A program made the position numbers and the translations under genes. From Vicinamibacteraceae bacterium (GTDB taxonomy: Bacteria; Planctomycetota; Phycisphaerae; Phycisphaerales; UBA5793): a stretch of 64,000 nt of DNA. The DNA is taken from contig WYBR01000090.1 of assembly GCA_011525805.1 (NCBI GenBank), positions 1-64,000 of the forward strand, given 5' to 3'. The notes below the pieces were generated by a model. That model saw only the letters and a list, made by a program, of their open reading frames with translations. It was not told the DNA's origin and did no database searches. Numbering within the stretch: the first letter of the stretch is position 1; every line of letters starts with the position of its first letter. This document shows, in pieces, positions 1 through 45,548 of this stretch.

Positions 1-973
1 CGGACGAGCCGCGACTGTGAAGGAGCGGGTCTCTATGCGCGAGGAACGGGTAGGAAGAACCCGCTTCCTCACGGGCGCGGCTCGTTGAGTCAACGAGACT
101 CGTCGAGTCAACATCCTCCTGCCACACCAGCGGCGCTGAATCCATCAGTGTGCCGAAGCTTGTCGCGATGCGCAGGTCGCCGCTTTCATCGACGCACAGC
201 GAATCGATGCCGTCGTAGGCGATGCGGATCTGATTCCAGTCCGCGCCCGGGGCGACGTGGAACTCATACTTGAGCACGCCGTCGTCGTTGCCGGCGATAG
301 TGAGGTCCACGCCGTCGTAGAGGTTCTCGTAGATGATCGCGCCGAACGACGGCACGTTGCTCGCCCACTTGCTCTCATCGTCACCGATGTAGTAGTTGAA
401 CTTCGCCTCCTGCGGCTGCGCGCCGCGCGGCGCCGCTGGATTGCTGCCGGGGAAGGTCACGGTGAGAGTGAGATGCTCGAACTCCACGGACTTGCCGGAC
501 GAGCCGCGCCCGTGAGGAAGCGGGTGAGAGTCATCAAACGAGAAGAAGCCTCGCTCAGGCTTCAGGCTCGCTTCGGGCACGGTTGCTGATTCGTACGGGC
601 GGGACACCCGTTCCACCACTTGATACTCGTACGGGCGGGACGCCCGTTCCACCACTTGATACTCGTACGGGCGGGACGCCCATGCTCCGTCCGTCGGATC
701 GACCACGACTGCGACGGGGACGTCGCGGCTCACCTCTCTGGAAAGGTGCATCGTGAAGGACGACTCGCGGAAGGCGATGTCGAGGCCGCGCGTCTTGAAG
801 CCGTACTCAACCGACGCATCGCTCCACTGCCCCTGGTTCTCGACGAAGTACACACCGCGCAGGCCGAGCGGCATGACCTCGGCGGCCGGCGCCTGCCGCG
901 CCTCGGCGAAAGCGGTGAGCGAAAGAACAGCAACGGCCGCGATTCCAACGATCCCGGTGCTGCGCAGCATCAT
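1..973 (-). CDS. Secreted protein with DUF7948/SBBP-type N-terminal domain, C-terminus beyond window
   Basis: The frame is open from an ATG at 973 (or 970), behind the ribosome-site-like GAGGAAGG, to the window edge, so the gene is partial. A hydrophobic leader (GIVGIAAVAVLSLTAFAEA) is followed by FVENQGQW, then after a linker NYYIGDDESKWASNVPSFG, YDGVDLTIAG and KYEFHVAPGADW. This order matches the N-terminal domain found ahead of SBBP beta-propeller repeats in secreted proteins. Short repeats interrupt the linker in frame: a 12-residue unit (RPYEYQVVERVS and variants) about 2.5 times, then PLPHGRGSSG, and after the VWQ motif a third segment ending HSRGSS. No function beyond export can be given. 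Family assignment is from remembered motifs. Confidence 0.75.
   Translation of the reverse strand, partial: MMLRSTGIVGIAAVAVLSLTAFAEARQAPAAEVMPLGLRGVYFVENQGQWSDASVEYGFKTRGLDIAFRESSFTMHLSREVSRDVPVAVVVDPTDGAWASRPYEYQVVERASRPYEYQVVERVSRPYESATVPEASLKPERGFFSFDDSHPLPHGRGSSGKSVEFEHLTLTVTFPGSNPAAPRGAQPQEAKFNYYIGDDESKWASNVPSFGAIIYENLYDGVDLTIAGNDDGVLKYEFHVAPGADWNQIRIAYDGIDSLCVDESGDLRIATSFGTLMDSAPLVWQEDVDSTSLVDSTSRAREEAGSSYPFLAHRDPLLHSRGSS
591..682 (+). repeat. 36-bp tandem repeat inside a coding frame
   Basis: Two full copies (591-626 and 627-662) and a partial third (663 to about 682) begin TCGTACGGGCGGGAC and end CCACCACTTGATAC. The copies differ at one base. On the minus strand they are read as a 12-residue unit within the secreted protein at 1-973, so the length keeps the frame open. 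Confidence 0.9.
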
Positions 974-45429: not shown

Positions 45430-45488
45430 GATGGAACTCCTCTTGCTGGCGAATGGCGATGTGCTGGAGGCGTGATCCGAAAGTGCGA

Positions 45489-45548
45489 GAGCCCAGGCAC
45501 GGCTGTGCCCGAAAGTGCCAAAGCCCAGGCACGGCTGTGCCTGGGCTT
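45489..45548. repeat. CCCAGGCAC hairpin repeats
   Basis: GCCCAGGCACGGCTGTGCC occurs twice (about 45491-45509 and 45523-45541) with CGAAAGTGCC between. The second copy forms a perfect 12-bp stem, AAGCCCAGGCAC (45521-45532) with GTGCCTGGGCTT (45537-45548). It lies downstream of the gene at 45583 and resembles the terminator at 44368-44397, so it likely ends that transcript. Confidence 0.8.

Follow-up and report, generated by a model that had tools for sequence, protein, structure and literature searches.

The window, the whole 64,000-nt stretch of DNA that was analysed, starts at a contig end: C72 breaks off there within a repeat whose bases recur on contigs C12 and C14. The gene at this end encodes an exported protein of the DUF7948 family (E = 1.1e-46, in two stretches; Pfam), and its 3′ half, which reads as a beta-propeller-like repeat protein, is found on C12 or C14. 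Alignment of 12 DUF7948 paralogues showed conserved blocks parted by two variable linkers. In the window gene these linkers hold three copies of a 27-bp element A, 2.5 copies of a 36-bp element B and a fragment of a third element, D, and one stop-free frame on the minus strand (973..2) contains all repeat segments of the window's left end (Table 1).

Table 1. Features of the window gene and its repeats, and the transposase domain within valS of the same genome (G000)
Feature	Position	Strand	Basis or remark
DUF7948 exported-protein gene, 5′ part, 324 aa	2..973	-	truncated at contig end
Putative signal peptide, residues 1–25	899..973	-	read from sequence alone
Linker 1, residues 81–164, with B, D and A segments	482..733	-	paralogue alignment
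Linker 2, residues 286–324, truncated by contig end, with A inverted pair	2..118	-	paralogue alignment
Element A, diverged (4 mismatches), in-frame peptide DPLLHSRGSS, other half of inverted pair	4..30	+	
Element A, exact consensus, in-frame peptide TSRAREEAG, outer half of inverted pair	59..85	-	
Palindromic A doublet, 82 bp, spacer 28 nt	4..85	.	
Element A, exact consensus, in-frame peptide PLPHGRGSS	499..525	+	pattern search
Element D fragment GCCTCGCTCAGGCTTCAGGCTCGC	548..571	+	paralogue C92 has it in linker 1 too
Element B array, 36-bp units at 591, 627 and 663 (last partial)	591..684	+	
Y1/HUH transposase domain in valS	G000 C60, locus L085:572-1549	-	

The first-pass annotation had described repeat units inserted in frame in this gene, among them a 36-bp unit present about 2.5 times, in linkers between conserved blocks. 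The observation of in-frame repeats is confirmed, as are the placement in linkers, seen in the paralogue alignment, and the 36-bp unit (591–626, 627–662 and 663–681 or so). A second repeat that it had placed near 1–30, 57–90 and 495–525 does correspond to three copies of A, but 4–85 is one inverted pair. The strand of the gene, the end of the contig within a repeat and element D are additions to that reading. The copies of A at 59–85 and 499–525 are perfect complements across 27 bp (consensus ACGAGCCGCGCCCGTGAGGAAGCGGGT), and element B, with the core ACGGGCGGGACGCCCGTTCCACC, forms a perfect 7-bp hairpin with a 3-nt loop and reads in frame as VERASRPYEYQ. Chance expectations in the window are 0.02 for A at up to 3 mismatches and 0.01 for B. 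As single-stranded DNA, the A doublet folds with −30.6 kcal/mol (z = −5.9 against shuffles); an A unit on its own gives a weak hairpin (z = −1.1).

To count sites of A and B across the genome, which is incomplete (138 contigs), we used pattern searches and read the stretches around the matches. For the 17-nt core of A there are 15 perfect matches, rising to 24 when one mismatch is allowed, and for the core of B 6, rising to 17; reversed-pattern controls at the loosest threshold gave 4 matches for A and 0 for B. Element D has eight copies at up to 2 mismatches. About 15 physical sites of A were distinguished (16 listed, the end of C72 being the same place as that of C12 or C14), and 11 of them lie in frame in recognised genes. 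Units of A and B turn up within unrelated genes as well as between genes, in either orientation and in several frames. A search of the genome for the same units, which the first-pass annotation had put forward as a check, found them in coding and intergenic sites alike. An A palindrome is common to the ends of C72, C12 and C14, C51 and C89 end in B, and C82 starts in A; because these contig ends fall inside repeats, A and B appear to be behind the contig breaks. Genes that carry element A in frame include nrdJ (class II ribonucleotide reductase), mnmA, proS and valS, all identified by NCBIfam, and a GNAT gene (Pfam). Element B is in frame in valS and, with hosts identified by reading only, in leuS and in genes for an aldehyde dehydrogenase, an oxidase and a glycosyltransferase. 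The suggestion that exported proteins tolerate mobile repeats thus holds as to tolerance, but not as something special to them, since cytosolic essential enzymes carry the repeats too.

Homologues without the insertions, the other check that had been named, were also found. Linker 2 spans 8 aa in paralogue C92b and 9–10 aa in several congener genes, compared with 35–82 aa where repeat peptides are present. Over a gap-free 407 nt, the DUF7948 genes of C72 and C82 share 94.3% identity; they then split at linker 2 (A versus B), as replacement of a mobile repeat or independent insertion would predict. Exact empty sites exist in nrdJ, proS and mnmA of congeners. For nrdJ, G003 is empty (GVPQ-GDG-TTGPEK), and the same site holds an A doublet in G004 (+96 nt), an A doublet plus one A in this genome (+135 nt), a B doublet in G001 (+69 nt) and another repeat in G002 (+78 nt), every length being a multiple of 3. 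The proS insertion adds 33 nt relative to three empty congeners, and mnmA holds repeats in this genome and G004 and is empty in G001–G003. The G002 insert in nrdJ (locus L355), a different repeat at the shared site (CCCTCACCCCAACCCTCTCCCGCGGGGAGAGGG), suggests yet another repeat family. Read as DEPRPSGSG, the A consensus hits TGA, and the three copies in that frame (valS loop 2, mnmA and the GNAT gene) have TCA instead. The repeats would be open, or mutable to open, in several reading frames, and insertions of multiple-of-3 length would therefore survive.

One of these hosts also contains a transposase. In valS on C60, the frame runs through five tandem copies of A (39-bp period) and then through the whole of a Y1 domain and a sixth A before it returns to the synthetase, at a place equivalent to about residues 365–376 of Thermus ValRS. 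The embedded domain has no start codon of its own, matches PF01797 and carries HVH and Y----Q, the latter being the mark of class 3 TnpA-Y1 (PMC6006769). For a structural model of the domain (pLDDT 85), the top 30 PDB matches were all IS200/REP transposases (Foldseek E = 5e-4 to 0.08), including 4er8, a REP-hairpin-bound structure. A free relative on C86, a class-3 REP-associated transposase (RAYT), has a sister element, C, on either side. An assembly chimera at valS was rejected on the basis of the single-contig genomes G032 and G060, which show the same arrangement, and no intein/Hint splicing-domain model of Pfam or NCBIfam matched the embedded valS and alaS genes. A RAYT-like gene on C101 beside a weak A-like match (7 mismatches) has Y---Q and was set aside as an ordinary IS200-like gene. 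No cognate transposase for B was found in this incomplete genome.

We surveyed 301 genomes of the order. At least 38 of them have a RAYT in frame inside valS at the same loop, with class-3 domains in at least 16 and a second RAYT type in at least 22; these and the rdgB counts given below are lower bounds, as weaker matches were left unread and the queries held a valS stretch, which favoured valS. Among the carriers are the two single-contig genomes. In the congener G001, a second-type RAYT sits in valS between B peptides (GGTAVSAV ... NGRDARSTG), and in G005 and G060, as in G001, the second type has B-type repeats around it. Judged from these arrangements, the genus has in valS a candidate cognate transposase for each of the two repeats in the window gene, A and B.

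Several features bear on whether the residents are maintained. Among the 16 class-3 residents of valS, 13 have no ATG, GTG or TTG within 25 upstream codons, and in two of the other three the start codon is far upstream (22–23 codons); all nine free relatives have a start codon. The HUH motif is intact in 51 of 51 RAYTs, the catalytic tyrosine is invariant in the class-3 alignment, and, as to the class 3 motif, Y----Q/E is present in 19 of 21. Element C has a CCGA foot, and of the A copies only some have the foot. Five measurable pairs gave dN/dS of 0.10–0.24, indicating purifying selection, and two further pairs were saturated. In trees, valS residents group apart from free RAYTs, with weak support. 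Taken together, the missing starts, the HUH motif, dN/dS and the trees favour maintained transposases that would be expressed by their hosts, although dN/dS would also be low if selection kept the domain folded and harmless. For the class-3 residents, RAYT versus host identity gave no support for simple vertical inheritance (Mantel r = 0.08, P = 0.31), and for the second type it pointed to vertical inheritance in part (r = 0.34, P = 0.0005).

We consider A and B to be non-autonomous mobile repeats of the REP kind, sitting in frame in tolerant linkers, translated there and most likely spread by Y1/HUH RAYTs, and we put the probability of this reading at roughly 0.8. Excision and insertion by Y1 enzymes require single-stranded DNA, as in IS200/IS605 biology, and TnpA-Y1 would mobilise A and B as single strands. 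The REP-like palindromic repeats would enter tolerant protein linkers in frame, with out-of-frame insertions removed by selection, and those that stay would be translated together with the protein that houses them. The probable spreaders are the class-3-like enzyme (Y----Q) between A copies in this genome's valS, as the candidate for A, and the enzyme between B copies in a congener's valS, as the candidate for B. We infer that A and B are substrates which these RAYTs cut and move, that fusion proteins are produced and that the essential host gene gives protection, residence in such a gene being expected to shield the transposase from loss. A RAYT flanked by its repeat is found three times, with A at the C60 valS, C at C86 and B at the G001 valS.

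Some points weigh against this reading. The genomes compared yielded neither a directly seen insertion event nor a target-site rule, the hairpin of a single A is weak and without the GTAG of classical REPs, this genome, incomplete as it is, yielded no transposase cognate to B, and some segments in the DUF7948 paralogues could stem from gene conversion without transposition. Like REPs, A and B are short palindromic repeats (27 bp and a 36-bp unit) with tens of copies and inverted dimers; A starts with (G/A)ACGAGCC, has GACG, the complement of CGTC, in some copies only, and is not mainly intergenic. A wider proposal, towards which we lean by a narrow measure, is that an HUH lineage lives as start-less in-frame domains of essential or conserved genes and spreads protein-compatible repeats into the linkers of other proteins. 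The host genes (valS, alaS, rdgB and a DUF1156 methylase) would supply expression and guard against loss of frame.

Among other explanations, the elements might have been moved in trans by a different transposase, such as a DDE enzyme working on a 90-bp form of B with terminal inverted repeats, leaving the RAYTs as passengers with a cellular role. The MITE-like 10-bp inverted repeats of that form fit this idea, and RAYTs are called domesticated in the abstract of PMC8266576, but we regard it as unlikely given the cognate pairing of A with this genome's valS RAYT, of B-type repeats with the second type (G001, G005 and G060) and of C with the C86 enzyme. It is highly improbable that the repeats were selected as functional peptide modules, such as binding or flexible arms, instead of being tolerated insertions: many paralogues and species do have them at the same linkers, but the same DNA in different frames gives unrelated peptides, unrelated repeat families share one site, and empty sites exist. 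Low-complexity linkers grown by replication slippage, together with DUF7948 gene conversion and no mobile element, would suit the tandem B array of the window and the near-identical, multicopy DUF7948 genes, in which conversion is plausible, but this account has very little to recommend it and its slippage part was rejected, because the same DNA units stand in unrelated genes and between genes, in both orientations and several frames, and the exact empty orthologous sites of nrdJ, proS and mnmA contradict it.

To our knowledge, no transposase has been linked to the Rickettsia palindromic elements, and for that reason the entry of palindromic repeats into proteins has long been an open question. 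Spread by RAYTs, the reading we prefer, would bear on this question: the repeat, a candidate transposase and sister species whose sites are empty are all available, so that the insertion step becomes testable. According to Ogata (2000, 2002), reviewed in PMC2229807, the Rickettsia elements are palindromic repeats that lie in frame and are translated in conserved proteins, with further copies in intergenic sites, and A and B resemble them in both respects; the nrdJ, proS and mnmA sites likewise hold in-frame insertions absent from orthologues. The resemblance to Rickettsia elements noted in the first-pass annotation is therefore one of behaviour: RPE-1 measures 105–146 bp in Rickettsia compared with 27 and 36 bp here (same source), candidate cognate transposases are identifiable here, and, judged by host alone, a repeat of a Phycisphaerales planctomycete falls outside a Rickettsia-restricted family.

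Intragenic REPs have been catalogued by Di Nocera (2013; PMC3733652), with Opitutus terrae and R. conorii holding the most. As here, singles, dimers and clusters lie inside ORFs, including those of DNA-repair genes and tRNA synthetases, and some ORFs are hit twice; unlike A, whose sites are mostly coding, those REPs are tagged with GTAG/CGTC and mostly intergenic, and a transposase within the decorated genes is unreported in the sections consulted. The class 3 TnpA-Y1 proteins of Planctomycetes and Acidobacteria (PMC6006769) share with the residents Y----Q, the HUH motif and flanking multicopy atypical palindromes, and the CCGA start of element C compares with their CnGA foot. They are, however, separate genes, whereas the domain here is start-less and within valS or alaS, and in the case reported there the nesting is the other way round, with REPs inside tnpA genes. 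Inteins and group I introns also place a mobile nuclease at a conserved position of an essential gene, but here the protein appears to keep the insert, which sits in a tolerant loop; by analogy, host use would be similar to that of an intein-housed homing endonuclease, without splicing.

In-frame palindromic repeats are thus already known, from Rickettsia (PMC2229807) and from Opitutus and others (PMC3733652). As far as the literature searched shows, candidate transposases in frame in essential genes are new, as are exact empty or differently filled sites in congeners; we found no report of transposases inside tRNA synthetases in a search outside which most subscription papers and preprints lay. 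If borne out, complete transposase domains in aminoacyl-tRNA synthetases would be a new lifestyle of mobile elements, and protein insertions as well as annotation errors would arise from them naturally.

Residents occur in other hosts and loci as well. Besides the C60 domain in valS, relatives are at loci L106-L111, L201-L219 and L230-L259, and two distinct RAYT types occupy the same valS loop. The second RAYT type is found in rdgB (XTP/dITP diphosphatase; host by reading) in at least eight genomes, between ARFVC and GTFEGRIG (L246, L249, L250, L251, L253, L254, L258 and L259). Among 80 named loci, class-3 RAYTs stand in frame in alaS at two different loops (L268, L274, L282, L283, L291, L299, L304, L309, L326, L328 and L331), the host being model-confirmed for L283 and L326 and identified by reading for the others; L326 has two Y1 stretches within one alaS frame. 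The same 80 include class-3 RAYTs in frame in DUF1156 methylase-like genes (L293, L294, L295, L306, L311 and L324), with residents also in Chloroflexi and Deltaproteobacteria bins, and the L295 family is anti-phage-associated.

Other repeats were seen in this genome. The long, MITE-like form of B (~90 bp; 10-bp terminal inverted repeats GTTTCACAAC/GTTGTGAAAC) occurs at C1:42587, C20:46101, C77:83763, C77:152126, C79:9679, C86:66704 and C96:7583, and none of these located sites was found inside a recognised gene. Element C (CCGAGCCCCGACCGTGAGGGAGCGGTC) occurs at C1:62508-62900, C101:21325-21765 and C86:1-700, arrayed in tandem (~46 bp) and beside a free class-3 RAYT. Within the window, 45477-45541 holds two copies of a 32-bp repeat (GCCCAGGCACGGCTGTGC) and an inverted partner, apparently at a gene end, and a few more diverged copies lie elsewhere in the genome.
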